From assembly GCA_017453985.1 (NCBI GenBank), contig JAFTDT010000097.1, forward strand, positions 1 through 50,801: DNA of 50,801 nt, in the 5' to 3' direction. Every line of letters starts with the position of its first letter. Positions within the stretch are counted from its first letter, which is position 1. The notes under the pieces were generated by a model. It did not search any database, was not told where the DNA came from, and worked only from the letters and a program-made list of their open reading frames with translations. The position numbers were made by a program, and so were the translations under genes. Source of the DNA: Clostridia bacterium. Lineage in GTDB: Bacteria; Bacillota; Clostridia; Oscillospirales; Butyricicoccaceae. Positions 12,379 to 50,064 of this stretch are shown here, piece after piece.

Positions 12379-12407
12379 TTGCGCGGAGAGTAAAGAAATG
12401 ATAAAAT
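12379..12407 (+). promoter_or_regulatory. Sigma-A promoter for fba
   Basis: TTGCGC at 12379-12384 and TAAAAT at 12402-12407 have a 17-bp spacer. Transcription would begin near 12414, which puts the ATG at 12419 almost at the RNA end and favours the TTG at 12440 as the real fba start. Confidence 0.6.
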
Positions 12408-12439
12408 AATAACAAATAATGTTTTTGGAGGTGTTTGTC

Positions 12440-24639: not shown

Positions 24640-24668
24640 TTGCCATTGCGCGTGAAATGTGGTATGAT
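24640..24668 (+). promoter_or_regulatory. Sigma-A promoter for the methyltransferase gene
   Basis: TTGCCA (24640-24645) and TATGAT (24663-24668) have a 17-bp spacer. Transcription would start near 24675, downstream of the ATG at 24657, so translation must begin at 24702. Confidence 0.65.
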
Positions 24669-24701
24669 TTACTCAGCGTTCAGAGGGCGGTGAGTAAAAC
24701 G

Positions 24702-25808
24702 ATGCGGCATGAAGAAGAAGGATATCTGTCCGAGCAGCTTATCACCTGCATCGGCAACAAGAGGGCGCTGCTCGGAGATATAGAAGAACGGGTGCTGGAG
24801 GTAAAGAAGGAGCTGGGGCGGGACAGACTCAGCTGTCTCGACCTGTTTTCCGGCAGCGGAGCGGTCGCAAGGCTGCTCAAGGGACACAGCGGCAGACTGA
24901 TCGCCAACGATTTGGAGCGGTATTCTTACGTTGTCAATTCCTGTCATTTGACAAATCGCGGCGAATACGATCCGGAGGCGTTCAGACATTATTTGCACAT
25001 GCTGAACGAGGCTTATGAAGAAAAGCGAATATCAGGCGTTATAACGGAAAACTATGCGCCGAAGGACGAGAATAATATCACAAAGGGAGAAAGAGTTTTT
25101 TACACGACGGAAAACGCCCGTATCATCGACACCTATCGGACAAATATAGATGCGTTGGTGCCGGAGGGGCTGCGCCGATTCTTTCTGGCGAGGCTTGTCA
25201 CGGAGGCTTCGGTGCATACGAATACGGCGGGCGTGTTCAAGGGATTTTACAAGGACAAAAACACCGGTGTGGGAAAATACGGCGGCTCTGGGGAAAATGC
25301 CCTCAGCCGCATACGCGGCAGAATAACGCTCACCGAGCCGGTTTTGAGCCGCTTTGAATGCGAAACGGAGGTATATCAAAAGGACGCAAACGAGCTGGCA
25401 AGGGAAATGCGGGGAATAGACCTGTGTTACATCGACCCGCCGTATGATCAGCACCCCTACGGCTCGAATTATTTCATGCTCAATCTGATACTGGAAAACC
25501 GGCTGCCGCAGGAGATAAGCGCGGTGTCCGGCATACCGCGAGGCTGGAACCGCTCGGCGTACAACAAAAGGAAAGAGGCGCTGGCGGCGCTGGAGGACGC
25601 GGTATCGGCGCTGGACGCAAAATATCTGCTGGTTTCCTACAATAACGAGGGCTTTATCGGGTACGGCGAGATGACGGAGATGCTCGGCAGATACGGCAGC
25701 CTGTCCGTAAGAGAGATACGCTACAACGCCTTTCGCGGCTCGAGAAATCTCGGCGGCAGGGAGAGGTATACGAACGAATATTTATTTTTGCTGAAAAAGG
25801 AGGCGTAA
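24702..25808 (+). CDS. DNA adenine methyltransferase, D12 class
   Basis: This is a 368-residue SAM-dependent N6-adenine methyltransferase. The SAM motif is DLFSGSGAVARLLK near residue 47, and the catalytic motif is CYIDPPYDQHPYGSNYF near residue 245 (DPPY, the D12/alpha-type adenine signature). Between them lies an insert with EASVHTNTAGVFKGFYK, seen in this family. The start at 24702 is set by the promoter; an in-frame ATG at 24657 lies upstream of the predicted RNA start. No restriction endonuclease or specificity gene is adjacent, so it looks like a solitary methylase with regulatory or protective roles. The recognition sequence cannot be read. The next gene begins 2 bp downstream. Confidence 0.88.
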   Translation: MRHEEEGYLSEQLITCIGNKRALLGDIEERVLEVKKELGRDRLSCLDLFSGSGAVARLLKGHSGRLIANDLERYSYVVNSCHLTNRGEYDPEAFRHYLHMLNEAYEEKRISGVITENYAPKDENNITKGERVFYTTENARIIDTYRTNIDALVPEGLRRFFLARLVTEASVHTNTAGVFKGFYKDKNTGVGKYGGSGENALSRIRGRITLTEPVLSRFECETEVYQKDANELAREMRGIDLCYIDPPYDQHPYGSNYFMLNLILENRLPQEISAVSGIPRGWNRSAYNKRKEALAALEDAVSALDAKYLLVSYNNEGFIGYGEMTEMLGRYGSLSVREIRYNAFRGSRNLGGRERYTNEYLFLLKKEA

Positions 25809-26558: not shown

Positions 26559-27056
26559 CTACCGCACGCCCGCGATATGTAAAAAGCGTATTTTGGCGAG
26601 GTTGTAGCTGGAGAGCGGGCGCAAATCTGAGTCGTTGGAATGCGCGGCGATATAGATGCTGTCGAGAGTCGGCGTGCCGTCGATGGACACGATGACGGGC
26701 GTGTGGTGGTAGCTTTCCTTGCCGACGAAGGCGAGCTGCACGAGGTCGCCCGGCTCCATCATGTCCATCGTTGTATCTGAGGCAAAGGGACCGGCGCCCG
26801 TGTTGGATACGAGAAAATTGTACAGATATTTCACTCCGGTCCACGACGCGGTGCGGTCACTCGCGCCGCGGTAAAACCAGCCGTACACGGGCGTGAAGTT
26901 CATCACGCCGGAGCCGGCGTACAGGCATTGACTGGCAAAATTGGTGCAGTCGCCGCCAAGTTTGCTGAAATCGAAATAGGCGGGGTTGCGGCGGTATGCC
27001 CATCTGTGCGCGTAGGCTACGGCGGCGTTGCGCCCGTAGGGATATATTTCAAGCAT
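26559..27056 (-). CDS. Amidase-domain (Amidase_6-like, NlpC/P60-fold) protein
   Basis: The product is a 165-residue protein with the papain-like amidase layout. The putative nucleophile is in LGGDCTNFASQCLYAG near residue 35, and the catalytic His is in YHHTPVIVSIDG about residue 118, after a PGDLVQLAF strand. An AYAHRWAYRRNPAYFDF start is typical of Amidase_6 domains found on clostridial cell-wall proteins. There is no signal peptide, so if it acts on peptidoglycan fragments it does so inside the cell or leaves by another route. ATG 27056 is chosen because GGAGG (27070-27066) lies 9 bp before it; that site forms one arm of a 13-bp hairpin. Two ATGs in the loop of the same hairpin (27083, 27080) are in-frame alternatives. 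Confidence 0.82.
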   Translation of the reverse strand: MLEIYPYGRNAAVAYAHRWAYRRNPAYFDFSKLGGDCTNFASQCLYAGSGVMNFTPVYGWFYRGASDRTASWTGVKYLYNFLVSNTGAGPFASDTTMDMMEPGDLVQLAFVGKESYHHTPVIVSIDGTPTLDSIYIAAHSNDSDLRPLSSYNLAKIRFLHIAGVR

Positions 27057-27060
27057 ATAA

Positions 27061-27103
27061 CAAAACCTCCTCGCGGTCATCATATGCCGCCGAGGAGGTT
27101 TTG
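27061..27103. repeat. 43-bp palindromic repeat, copy 1
   Basis: The 43 bases are identical to 29154-29196. Arms of 13 bp (27061-27073 with 27091-27103) are perfectly complementary, with a further short inner pairing. Both orientations end in GGTTTTGTT, so it can terminate in either direction. On the minus strand its 3' arm supplies the ribosome binding site of the amidase gene. It marks the left edge of the 2-kb atypical segment. Confidence 0.9.
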
Positions 27104-27469
27104 TTGCACTGAGATGTAATTGCAGAACATCGCAAAGATTTTGTATAACAATTCATGGTGGTGTGTATTGACTGGAAATAAAAGCGCATGATAAAATAAT
27201 CATAAATGATGGGTGAACTGTAAAAATGGCACTTTAGAGGCTATGGTAGAAACGGTGGTCATAATGATGCGGTTCTTACGAATGAATGGGATTAGGAAGG
27301 GCATAGCCCGTTTGAAGCGATGTAATCTCAGCTCCGTTGGATGTGCGCTACTTTAAAGGTAAAAGAGGTACGCTTATGAGCAACATCAAATAATTTATAC
27401 ATCGTGTATGAGGGGTATTATTCTGAGGTGAATAAGTAAAAAACTATCATGAAAGTTGGAGGCATATAG
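27104..27469 (+). other. Non-coding gap of 366 bp ahead of the SLH gene, with a promoter and a possible gene remnant
   Basis: No convincing gene lies here. A promoter is visible at 27168-27197. From about 27234 to 27390 one frame reads YGRNGGHNDAVLTNEWD, then a stop, then EGHSPFEAM, then another stop, which looks like decayed coding sequence. Another frame has a 37-residue basic peptide (27243-27356) with a poor ribosome site. A short GGGC-ATA-GCCC hairpin lies around 27300. I recognise no riboswitch. Confidence 0.4.
27168..27197 (+). promoter_or_regulatory. Sigma-A-like promoter inside the atypical segment
   Basis: TTGACT (27168-27173) and TAAAAT (27192-27197) are 18 bp apart. It would transcribe a leader of about 265 nt before the SLH-domain gene. 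Confidence 0.5.
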
Positions 27470-28699
27470 ATGAAAGCAAAGAAGTATTTGATCTGCGTTA
27501 TTTGTCTGTTGGCTGCAGTGCTGCTGCTTGCATCAACGGTGATGGCTACAGAGACAGAGGACGAGACTCTGTGGGAGGTGCAGGATGCTGCATTTTTGCA
27601 GACACTTGGCATTTTGCGCGGCACCGGAAGAGACTTGGAGTTAGATCAAGTACTGACACGCGCCCAGGCGGTAACCCTTTGCGTACGGTTGCTTGGCGGT
27701 GAGGCGGACGCCTTGGAAAATCCGCGGTCATCGCCTTTTGCAGATGTGCCTTCCTGGGCTAAGCCTTATGTGGGCTGGCTCTATGAGAGGGAGACCACCA
27801 ATGGCACCAGCGACACGGTCTTCATGCCAAGCCGCCCGGTGACACATCGGGAGTTCTGTTTTTTCCTGACGCGCGCCTTGGGCGGAGGTCTGTACGACGA
27901 GCCACGCCGTGAGTTGAAAAACTACGGCATCGAGACGGAGGAGCAGAAGCAATCCCCCATCACTCGCGGGCTGGCGTCACGACTGTGCGTACAGGCGCTT
28001 CGACTGGGGTGTTTCAGCGACCGCATCGAGACCCTTGCACAGAATCTGCTACGCCGAGGTGTCATTTCGGAAGAGGCAATGATCGAGGTCGCCACTGGGA
28101 TGACAGGCGGAACAGAATTCACACTCTACAGTATCTCTTACGGCATGTTACGCGACAGTGAGTATGTGTTTAATAATGTGAAGCATTGGAACGCTCCGGA
28201 CGGCGGCGCCTACAGTGTTTGCGATGAGGGCGCTTGGCGTGATGACGGGGAGAGCATTGTCTGGCTGTCCCATGAGCGCTGCGCGGATCTGGGAATGCCG
28301 CTGTGCGCTGCTCCAGACGGTGTGGCATATCTGACTTACGATGGGAAGGTGCTGCTTCTGACTTCGGAGGGTGAGGCAATGGAGCTTCTGCCCTACCGCT
28401 TGTCCACTCGCTTCACCTTGGAGCGGACGACACTGGAGAACTTCGACGGCGCTGTGCTCCGTTTGACTCGCATGACTACCGGCAAATATCCCCCGACACC
28501 GGTTTACAGCTATGAAGCTGACGCGGACGGCGTAAGCTGTACGGAATGTACCTATCCGGACGAGGCCAATGTCGTCTGGCTCGCCGGAGCCGCCGAGGCC
28601 GCTGGCGTGGACGTGGAAATGTATCTGGTTGGGCAGGTGGCCGCGGAGCAGGTTCTGCTGGATGCAGAACTACAGACATATGTAGAAAGCGGAAAATAA
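27470..28699 (+). CDS. Secreted S-layer-homology (SLH) domain protein
   Basis: The 409-residue protein has a signal peptide (YLICVICLLAAVLLLASTVMA, about residues 6-26). Two SLH-like repeats follow: LGILRGTGRDLELDQVLTRA with AVTLCVRLLGG, then FADVPSWAKPYVGWLYERE to RPVTHREFCFFLTRAL. A third, weaker copy runs to about residue 190. SLH repeats bind pyruvylated secondary wall polymer and anchor proteins to the cell surface. The remaining 210 residues resemble nothing I know. Isoleucine is never written ATA (0 of 10; 6 ATC, 4 ATT), unlike resident genes, so the gene looks acquired. TTGGAGG stands 8 bp before the ATG. Confidence 0.85.
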   Translation: MKAKKYLICVICLLAAVLLLASTVMATETEDETLWEVQDAAFLQTLGILRGTGRDLELDQVLTRAQAVTLCVRLLGGEADALENPRSSPFADVPSWAKPYVGWLYERETTNGTSDTVFMPSRPVTHREFCFFLTRALGGGLYDEPRRELKNYGIETEEQKQSPITRGLASRLCVQALRLGCFSDRIETLAQNLLRRGVISEEAMIEVATGMTGGTEFTLYSISYGMLRDSEYVFNNVKHWNAPDGGAYSVCDEGAWRDDGESIVWLSHERCADLGMPLCAAPDGVAYLTYDGKVLLLTSEGEAMELLPYRLSTRFTLERTTLENFDGAVLRLTRMTTGKYPPTPVYSYEADADGVSCTECTYPDEANVVWLAGAAEAAGVDVEMYLVGQVAAEQVLLDAELQTYVESGK

Positions 28700-28713
28700 A
28701 AAATAATAGTTAA

Positions 28714-29142
28714 ATGAGAAAATATAGTATTAAACAAGCAATTATTTCGTTGGCAATAATTGCTGCGTTGGGCATCTTTCTGAGCGTGTGGTTCTTAGCT
28801 AAAGCTGAAATATATTTGAAGCCTATGCAGCGGGAATATCCCGTTGGAACAATAACCGTAGATGCAGCTTTTAAAAACATCTGGCAGGCGGAAAAGTATT
28901 TTGCCGGCAGCAAATATGTTCTCGAAAAGCTTGAAAATGGACAGTGGATAAGGATTTTAAAAGATGCAAAAGGAGCTTTTTTTACAGATGAGCGGTTTTC
29001 CCCTGTTCACGGAACACAAATAACCTTTGATTTGACAAGATATTGCGACGGCCTTTCTGAAGGCGAATATAGGATAAGTGTGACATTGACGGATAAAAAA
29101 GGTGCAAAAAAAGACGTGTACTGTCATTTCACGGTACACTGA
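28714..29142 (+). CDS. Membrane-anchored Ig-like domain protein
   Basis: The 142-residue protein has one N-terminal membrane helix (IISLAIIAALGIFLSVWFLA, about residues 9-28) and an extracytoplasmic domain of about 100 residues. YVLEKLENGQWIRI, THGTQITFDL-like strands and LSEGEYRISVTLTD recall the Big_14-type immunoglobulin-like domains of Firmicutes, whose role is unknown. It lies 14 bp after the SLH gene with little Shine-Dalgarno sequence, so it may depend on coupling. It is AT-rich and differs in composition both from the SLH gene and from the host. It ends 11 bp before the second 43-bp palindrome. Confidence 0.7.
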   Translation: MRKYSIKQAIISLAIIAALGIFLSVWFLAKAEIYLKPMQREYPVGTITVDAAFKNIWQAEKYFAGSKYVLEKLENGQWIRILKDAKGAFFTDERFSPVHGTQITFDLTRYCDGLSEGEYRISVTLTDKKGAKKDVYCHFTVH

Positions 29143-29153
29143 TGATTGAGAAG

Positions 29154-29196
29154 CAAAACCTCCTCGCGGTCATCATATGCCGCCGAGGAGGTTTTG
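29154..29196. repeat. 43-bp palindromic repeat, copy 2
   Basis: Identical over 43 bases to 27061-27103; the match continues as TGC after one T/C difference. It lies between the convergent Ig-like gene and MATE gene and is a good bidirectional terminator for both. Together with copy 1 it brackets 2,050 bp of compositionally distinct DNA. Confidence 0.9.
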
Positions 29197-29203
29197 CTGC
29201 GTT

Positions 29204-30580
29204 TTACTGAGCCTTGCCGAGTGAGGTGTTTATCCTTTTCTTCTTCCACTTGCCGGACAGGAAATATCCAAAGCAGAGCAGGGCGGAGGCGGCGGAGGCT
29301 ATCGGCGCGCCGAGTCCGACGCCGCGCAGTCCCATATTAAAAGCTATTCCGAACAGATAGCACGCAGGAATGCGGACGAGCAGCGAGGACATCAGTCCAT
29401 TGATAAGCGTGAAATTGGTGTGCCCCGCGCCCATGAACAGTCCGTTGAAGCCCGCGAATATCGCCACGCACAGATAATCGTAGCGGAAGCTGCTGAGATA
29501 TTCGCGTCCCGCCGAGGCAAGCGCCGGGTCGTCCGCGAAAACAAGCATTATCTGTTCGGGGAACAGCACGGTTATAAGAAAGACTATTGAACTCATGATG
29601 AGTGCGAAAAGCGTGCCGAGCTTCATGGTCTGCACGGCGCGTTTTTCTTCACCGGCGCCGAGGTTCTGCGCGCTCATGGCGGATATCGCGGCGCTCATGG
29701 CAAAGGCTGGCAGCACGCCGAAGGCGTTGAACTTGCCCACGGCGCCGACAGCCGCCGACGCCACGGCGGTGGGGTCGAGTATGTTCACCATCGCGGTGAG
29801 GAAGAGGAAGGACAGACTGGTGCAGGTGTTCTGGACGGACATCGGCAGCCCTATCCGCAGAATGGAGCGCAGATGCTCCTTGTGTATGACGAAGGATTTG
29901 CGGTTGAAGTCGAAAACAAAATCGTTCTTCTTCAGATACAGTATGCACAGTATCATGCTTATTGCCTGGGAAATGATGGTGGCAAGTCCTGCACCGAAGG
30001 CGCCGAGCTGGAAATACGCGACCATCAGAAAATCCAGCGCTACGTTGACGAGGCAGGCGATGGTGACGAATATCAGCGGGCTGCGGCTGTCGCCCATGCC
30101 GCGCATGACGGCGCTGAGCGCGTTGTAGCCGAAAATGAATATCGTCCCCAGTGAGGTCACGAGCAGATAGCTCTTGGCGTCATTGAAGGAGGGCGGGGGA
30201 GTCTGTATGGCGTTGAGTATCGGTGTGCGCAGTGCCAGCATAAGTCCGGTAAGTATTGCCGCCGCGATGAGCAGCACGGAAAAGAGGGTGCCGGTGCAGT
30301 CCTTCAGCGCCTTGCGGTTGCCCGCGCCCATATATTGCCCGATCATGATGGTCGCGCCGGAGGTTATGCCGAAGACGATGTTGGTTATCAGCATCGTGAC
30401 CTGTCCGCCGATGTTCACACCGGACATACTGACTGTGCCGGCAAACTGCCCGACGATTATCATGTCTGCGACGCTGTACAGCGCCTGCACGAGATTGGAG
30501 ATTATAAACGGTATGGCAAACAGCAAAAGCTGCTTGCCGACATGACCTTTTGAGAGGTCTTTTTCTATCTTTCTCGCCAA
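29204..30580 (-). CDS. MATE family efflux transporter
   Basis: The product is a 458-residue integral membrane protein with the twelve-helix MATE pattern in two halves. The opening MARKIEKDLSKGHVGKQLLL leads into FAIPFIISNLVQALYSVADM and IIVGQFAG, the first-half MATE signature. MATE proteins export cationic drugs or metabolites against Na+ or H+. The start is a TTG, five or six bases after AAGGTG. It follows the ParC-like gene by 20 bp on the same strand, so it is probably co-transcribed with that pair. The substrate is not predictable. Confidence 0.93.
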   Translation of the reverse strand: MARKIEKDLSKGHVGKQLLLFAIPFIISNLVQALYSVADMIIVGQFAGTVSMSGVNIGGQVTMLITNIVFGITSGATIMIGQYMGAGNRKALKDCTGTLFSVLLIAAAILTGLMLALRTPILNAIQTPPPSFNDAKSYLLVTSLGTIFIFGYNALSAVMRGMGDSRSPLIFVTIACLVNVALDFLMVAYFQLGAFGAGLATIISQAISMILCILYLKKNDFVFDFNRKSFVIHKEHLRSILRIGLPMSVQNTCTSLSFLFLTAMVNILDPTAVASAAVGAVGKFNAFGVLPAFAMSAAISAMSAQNLGAGEEKRAVQTMKLGTLFALIMSSIVFLITVLFPEQIMLVFADDPALASAGREYLSSFRYDYLCVAIFAGFNGLFMGAGHTNFTLINGLMSSLLVRIPACYLFGIAFNMGLRGVGLGAPIASAASALLCFGYFLSGKWKKKRINTSLGKAQ

Positions 30581-49755: not shown

Positions 49756-49812
49756 GACAGAACATTTTTAAGGGCAGTGCATAGAATGGTACGGAAGGAG
49801 AGTGCCATATCT

Positions 49813-50064
49813 ATGAACTGCCTTATTATTTTCAGGTCTGTGACTCATGCGCAGACGATAATTTCATATTTGAGCAAAAATTCCGTCATGGCAGACCTCG
49901 TGCGACCGCCGCTCATTTTGGGTACCGGCTCATGCAGCTATGGAGTGCGGCTGCGGTGCGATAAGCTGCATGCGGCGATAAGTCTCATAAATAAAACCAG
50001 AATAAGACCTGTAAAGGCGTATAAGCTGCTTCCGAACGAGGGTTATCGTGAGGTGAGCATATGA
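49813..50064 (+). CDS. DUF3343 domain protein (putative Se/S carrier)
   Basis: The product is a small 83-residue protein. LIIFRSVTHAQTIISYL, a variable middle, then GTGSCSYGVRLRCDKLH match the DUF3343 pattern, where a conserved Cys near the Gly-rich loop is proposed to carry selenium or sulfur. It overlaps the downstream cysteine desulfurase-like gene as ATGA. In other Firmicutes this pair often neighbours selD and selenium-dependent molybdenum hydroxylase genes. ATG 49813 gives the normal length; AAGGAGAG upstream is about 10 bp away. An earlier frame start at 49777 would add 12 residues. Carrier function is a family hypothesis, not shown. Confidence 0.78.
   Translation: MNCLIIFRSVTHAQTIISYLSKNSVMADLVRPPLILGTGSCSYGVRLRCDKLHAAISLINKTRIRPVKAYKLLPNEGYREVSI

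Follow-up and report, generated by a model that had tools for sequence, protein, structure and literature searches.

Genes and features at the locus

The locus lies in a contig of a Clostridia bacterium of the family Butyricicoccaceae, within a window of 50,801 nt (the whole stretch of DNA that was analysed). Two identical hairpins stand there on either side of a two-gene segment, with an amidase gene beyond one of them and a MATE gene beyond the other. The features are as follows.

26559-27056, minus strand: Amidase_6-domain gene for a putative cell-wall amidase, 165 codons, ATG at 27056-27054 (PF12671, E 4e-37)
27061-27103, minus strand: copy 1, the amidase leader hairpin, with a predicted promoter in its loop and the Shine-Dalgarno sequence in its 3' arm (-31.5 kcal/mol, z -6.8)
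27066-27071, minus strand: Shine-Dalgarno sequence AGGAGG, 9 nt ahead of the amidase ATG and paired in the hairpin (from sequence and fold)
27078-27086, minus strand: -10 element CATATGATG of the kind read by mother-cell sporulation sigma factors, located in the loop and 30 nt ahead of the ATG (from the leaders of relatives)
27103-27104, minus strand: -35 element AC, 16 nt upstream of CATA (from sequence and the spacing in relatives)
27104-29153, plus strand: atypical segment of 2,050 bp, a probable insertion (from composition; no DNA relative)
27168-27197, plus strand: sigma-A-like promoter TTGACT-18-TAAAAT upstream of the SLH gene (consensus match only)
27470-28699, plus strand: SLH-domain gene, 409 aa, without an ATA codon (PF00395, E 1.5e-7)
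28714-29142, plus strand: gene for a Big_14 Ig-like membrane-anchored protein, 142 aa (PF20251, E 8e-8)
29154-29196, no strand assigned: copy 2, a probable duplicate of the leader and possible bidirectional terminator (from sequence and fold)
29204-30580, minus strand: MATE efflux-type gene with resident codon use (PF01554)

The initial annotation of this DNA had pointed to 27061-27103 and 29154-29196 as identical hairpins with a 13-bp stem. The 43-nt identity is exact, and the expected number of such pairs by chance is negligible (log10 of about -16.6). The stem of 13 bp is what lies inside the 43-mer; with the flanking pairs counted it reaches 15 bp in each copy, since the next bases are A...T in copy 1 and G...C in copy 2 (overall, A-T and A-T pairs flank copy 1, and G-C and A-T pairs flank copy 2). 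Each copy folds at -31 to -33 kcal/mol, with z from -6.8 to -8.0. Exact identity stops at both edges of the palindrome, and the repeat extends to 47 nt with one mismatch (98%), GC coming next on the right side in both copies and one more base matching on the left. Throughout the 2.06-Mb genome (121 contigs) only these two copies were found, even with up to 3 mismatches allowed. No further 43-mer was found in 84,980 species genomes or in viral contigs, in scans that may omit records very close to the host genome, and no Rfam family matched.

The SLH-domain and Ig-like genes proposed between the hairpins were both recovered as domain matches, and the unusual codon use ascribed to the SLH gene was also borne out: 0 of its 10 isoleucine codons are ATA, against 515 of 961 in the crudely called resident ORFs (P about 5e-4). 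The gene remnant said to accompany them was not, as 27104-27469 holds no convincing ORF. The GC content is 57% for the SLH gene, 39% for the Ig-like gene and 38% for 27104-27469, with flanks of 55-56%. Because the two cargo genes differ so much (57% vs 39%), they do not look like the DNA of one donor. The best protein relative of the SLH gene is 34% identical (in genome G027), and those of the Ig-like protein are 31-34% identical. At the DNA level, no relative of the 2-kb segment was found in 86 relatives beyond an 80%-identical SLH patch of 53-60 nt, and the pair of genes was not seen together elsewhere. Near the closest SLH relative (L039, G027:C17) there is a recombinase-like gene, with ArsR- and permease-like genes beside it. 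A 24-nt similarity between 12398-12421 and 27188-27211 does not extend and was taken as an AT-rich, promoter-like chance match.

A sporulation-type promoter in the amidase leader

A point missed in the earlier description is that copy 1 overlaps the promoter and the ribosome-binding site of the amidase gene, and on the minus strand it stops 4 nt ahead of the amidase ATG. We read the two 43-mers as copies of the region in which this putative cell-wall amidase gene starts, and not as the ends of a mobile element. Promoters of sigma-E and sigma-K in Clostridioides difficile have a -10 element common to both, with a -35 AC for sigma-K (PMC3789822); the P2 promoter of sigK, for example, has CATATAAT with AC (PMC3789822). 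The amidase leader resembles the sigma-K promoters in having both the -35 AC and the same type of -10 element, and AC-N16-CATATGATG shows the AC, the spacing of 16-17 nt and the CATANNNTA-like -10 that are taken as sigma-K-type. The last base of CATATGATG is G and not A, as it also is in 49 of 72 relatives, and the spacing of 16 stands beside a modal spacing of 17 in relatives. Unlike the C. difficile promoters (PMC3789822), this one is built into a palindrome together with the Shine-Dalgarno sequence. Judging from these elements, the amidase promoter would be read by a sigma-K-type polymerase. A search of the genome for the sigma-K gene gave a best match of 286 bits (curated cut-off 299). The host is likely a spore former, because SpoIID, SpoIVB and Spo0A are all encoded in the window.

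A further sporulation-type promoter adjoins Spo0A and SpoIVB. There, at 49780-50064 on the plus strand, AC-N16-CATAGAATG is followed by a Shine-Dalgarno sequence and an 83-aa ORF that is DUF3343-like by eye. Another locus (L275) has a perfect promoter-in-loop hairpin, and its encoded protein resembles this 83-aa ORF.

Relatives show how far the leader is conserved. Amidase orthologues, which are 50-71% identical in the host family, were taken from 86 family relatives and from GTDB genomes, giving 99 distinct leaders. The motif CATAnnnT(G/A) lies at -60 to -22 in 72 of the 99; shuffled leaders give 1.75 on average and at most 3. In 37 of these 72 the AC is placed exactly 17 nt upstream, every other spacing being found in 1 to 8. 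An arm upstream of the -10 element that sequesters the Shine-Dalgarno sequence (p<=0.05) was found in 12 of the 72 leaders, compared with 2 of the 72 for a control arm. From these two results it is evident that the amidase promoter is nearly universal among relatives and that the hairpin belongs to a subset only. The same sequestering design, in a different sequence, is present in leaders L017, L019, L027 and L029. It lies between gyrA and the amidase gene in L017 (which reads AAAACCTCCTGCGCAGCATAGACTGCCGCAGGAGGTTTT) and L019, and the hairpins of L027, L028 and L029 are shorter versions. In five loci (L105, L114, L124, L125 and L145), several of them on contigs with names that start with 'Lapin', CATAGAATG or CATAAAATG stands just 13 nt ahead of the amidase start codon, which suggests that the amidase transcripts are nearly leaderless there.

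A predicted switch against read-through and a probable insertion

The position of the promoter within the loop would have consequences for the RNA. In folding predictions, read-through RNA over copy 1 reaches -31.5 kcal/mol with the Shine-Dalgarno sequence paired, while RNA that begins at the predicted start, just ahead of the Shine-Dalgarno sequence, has neither 5' arm nor loop and reaches -2.5 kcal/mol. A polymerase arriving from gyrA or MATE would transcribe the entire hairpin, which would hide the Shine-Dalgarno sequence and could allow termination. During sporulation, a sigma-K-type polymerase would instead initiate within the loop; since the resulting RNA would lack the 5' arm, the hairpin could not form and the RNA would be translated. 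We therefore infer from the predicted folds that copy 1 may act as a built-in off-switch against read-through into the amidase gene.

Two systems offer precedents for such an arrangement. In the leader of sigG (spoIIIG) of Bacillus subtilis, a hairpin of 20 or more pairs was put forward as a block to the translation of RNA that reads through from the preceding operon; RNA started at the sporulation promoter of sigG itself cannot fold into it (PMC5942855). The amidase leader is predicted to be alike in that the Shine-Dalgarno sequence is hidden in read-through RNA and the RNA from its own promoter escapes. The two differ in that sigG is a regulatory gene with a forespore sigma-F/G promoter, while the amidase leader carries a sigma-K-type promoter within a compact loop, ahead of a gene for a cell-wall enzyme, and in that a second copy of the leader flanks an insert here. 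In the leaders of gene e (lysozyme) and I-TevI of phage T4, early read-through RNA hides the start site; late-promoter RNA of gene e starts at the hairpin without its 5' part and is translated (PMC3014915). Gene e thus likewise encodes a cell-wall enzyme whose start is hidden in read-through RNA, as is predicted for the amidase, although it relies on a phage late promoter in a phage, and homology to the amidase leader is not claimed.

It then remains to account for the second copy. Exact direct repeats around a segment are familiar as the target-site duplications of transposons and as the att repeats of integrative elements, and the exact direct repeats around this atypical segment have the same appearance. 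The initial annotation had raised the possibility of a non-autonomous mobile element moved in trans, in which case the 43-mers would be its attachment or target sites. An atypical two-gene segment that lacks a recombinase of its own and is flanked by exact direct repeats would suit such an element. The initial annotation had noted the absence of a transposase or integrase; indeed, no recombinase was found among the proteins scanned, and a test for an integrative element found no integrase among the scanned neighbours of the repeats. What sets the locus apart from transposons and integrative elements is that it has neither a recombinase nor terminal inverted repeats and that its repeat is a resident regulatory leader, not element DNA. 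Moreover, the host genome holds the cargo only once and the 43-mer only twice, no relatives of the cargo were found in viral contigs or plasmids, and a transposase would not usually leave a target duplication of 43 nt. With no transposase, terminal inverted repeat or third copy to be found, we consider a trans-mobilised element improbable.

The surroundings of copy 2 invite a different explanation. This copy begins 7 nt after the stop codon of MATE, in the space where the Ig-like and MATE genes converge, and because of this location it may serve as a two-way terminator. The pair could accordingly be ordinary terminators homogenised by gene conversion, with the SLH and Ig-like genes acquired separately. 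In favour of this, copy 2 occupies a place where one expects a two-way terminator, pairing is kept although the flanking bases differ (A-T in copy 1 vs G-C in copy 2), and the cargo genes are unlike in GC (57% vs 39%). However, terminators have no need of an identical asymmetric loop with a sporulation -10 element. The T run of the hairpin is TTTTG within a strong stem, a scan for the terminator consensus called neither copy, and the MATE orthologues of relatives end in unrelated terminators. Homogenised terminators are on balance quite unlikely as the source of the pair. On the promoter side, bases 29196-29197 of copy 2 are GC where copy 1 has the -35 AC, and the minus strand behind copy 2 offers only Ig-like antisense and no gene.

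Comparison of gene order points to an older arrangement. The amidase gene directly follows gyrB-gyrA in L010, L012 and L017-L019, and other genes come between them in L068, L069, L070, L014 and L021. A MATE gene directly follows gyrA in L155-L159 (genomes G083, G084 and G065-G067; MATE 63-67% identical). With both the gyrA-amidase and the gyrA-MATE adjacencies native in relatives, an ancestral order of gyrA, MATE, leader and amidase is plausible. The stretch behind gyrA is variable in the host family and includes psuK/psuG-like, YitT-like and MATE genes. Two genes upstream of the amidase locus, at 24657-25808, the window encodes a D12-class DNA adenine methylase, for which no restriction partner is obvious in the vicinity.

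These native adjacencies, the atypical composition and the absence of a DNA relative in 86 genomes make it probable that the 2,050-bp segment entered between MATE and amidase and doubled the leader. The ancestor would have had gyrB-gyrA-MATE-leader-amidase, and the 2.05 kb that hold the SLH and Ig-like genes would have entered at the leader and duplicated it; copy 1 would have retained the promoter and its gene, with copy 2 left behind MATE without the -35 AC. The history given in the initial annotation, in which foreign genes entered at a single hairpin and duplicated it, stands as the simplest one, although the hairpin was taken there for a mere terminator and is instead a conserved amidase leader. 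An exact empty site was not found among the relatives compared, the host genus being represented by one genome in the collection. An anti-read-through leader, followed by a 2.05-kb insertion at this leader that duplicated it, is in our view the best combined explanation, with a probability of roughly 0.6.

As to how the segment entered, the duplicated stretch and the palindrome are nearly equal in length, and cruciform nicking or recombination with circular DNA is therefore possible. The duplication could have arisen if an extruded cruciform was nicked in a staggered way at its base and the gaps were then filled in; within the insertion history this route is a guess that we hold as rather doubtful. 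In the other case, a DNA circle with the two cargo genes next to the same leader would have recombined with the resident leader by a single crossover. This would yield exactly two direct copies around the insert, and homology does run slightly past the palindrome (47 nt with one mismatch, plus one base on the left). Nevertheless, a donor with this exact leader is required and none was found in the genomes scanned, and 43-49 nt is short for homologous recombination, which makes the crossover unlikely. The join might, finally, be an artefact in which a fragment was placed in the contig via a short repeat. In its favour, the assembly is split into 121 contigs, and a repeat of 43 nt is close to the k-mer lengths that assemblers use; against it, the two copies are immediately flanked by different bases, and such a fragment would have had to end in the 43-mer on both sides. 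We regard such an artefact as very improbable.

Recurrence of the hairpin design

The same design was sought beyond the amidase gene. The pattern CCTCC-(2-16)-CATANNNT-(2-16)-GGAGG occurs 107 times in 87 family genomes versus 42 for the reversed pattern, and a stricter GCATANNNTG form, counted by eye, occurs about 100 times versus about 27 reversed in 394 genomes of the order; in this control, a promoter with a following Shine-Dalgarno sequence alone could also raise the counts. An ORF starts 5-13 nt after GGAGG in 41 of 69 fetched family hits, which were picked with a preference for plausible ones. The products of family hits include dipicolinate synthase A (dpaA; three genomes), YabP, YtaF (two), YlmC/YmxH (two) and SafA-like LysM, SodC-like and SpoIIQ-like M23 proteins, and those of 20 further loci of the order include SpoVB, CwlD-like, YabP, LysM and aspartokinase, most of these product matches being to partial sequences and below curated cut-offs. 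Distinct family hits have 1.40 inner pairs beyond the required letters, compared with 0.58 for swapped arms (0 of 5000). Pairing extends equally in hits without the strict -10 (GCATAnnnTG), so ordinary hairpins are mixed in. An earlier swapped-arm test on the fetched loci used a hand-picked subset and was not relied on. There is good evidence that the promoter-in-loop hairpin recurs, and weak evidence as to how common it is.

Two other groups of hairpins were seen along the way. An identical perfect palindrome, CCTCCGCGGCATAGATTGTCGCGGAGG, is present in four genomes of one genus (L278, L279, G089:C27 and G148:C131), and no clear start codon follows it. The CCTCCTGCTYTGCATAGAATGGTGCAAAGCAGGAGG hairpins of L276 and L277, from two genomes of a single genus, are terminator-like, with a sporulation -10 in the loop, a T run after the hairpin and no nearby start codon.

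Taken more broadly, the compact hairpin that holds a mother-cell sporulation promoter in its loop and hides the Shine-Dalgarno sequence might be a recurrent insulator of sporulation genes against read-through across the order, its cruciform serving as a site where foreign DNA inserts and duplicates the whole element. We put this forward tentatively, as a reading that falls short of an even chance. If it is true, one element of 43 bp would serve at once as read-through insulator, sporulation promoter and start site, and it would precede many spore genes of mostly uncultured gut Clostridia. It would help to explain how late spore genes remain silent where a housekeeping gene such as gyrA lies immediately upstream, and it would mean that identical hairpins bracketing foreign genes need not be the ends of a mobile element.
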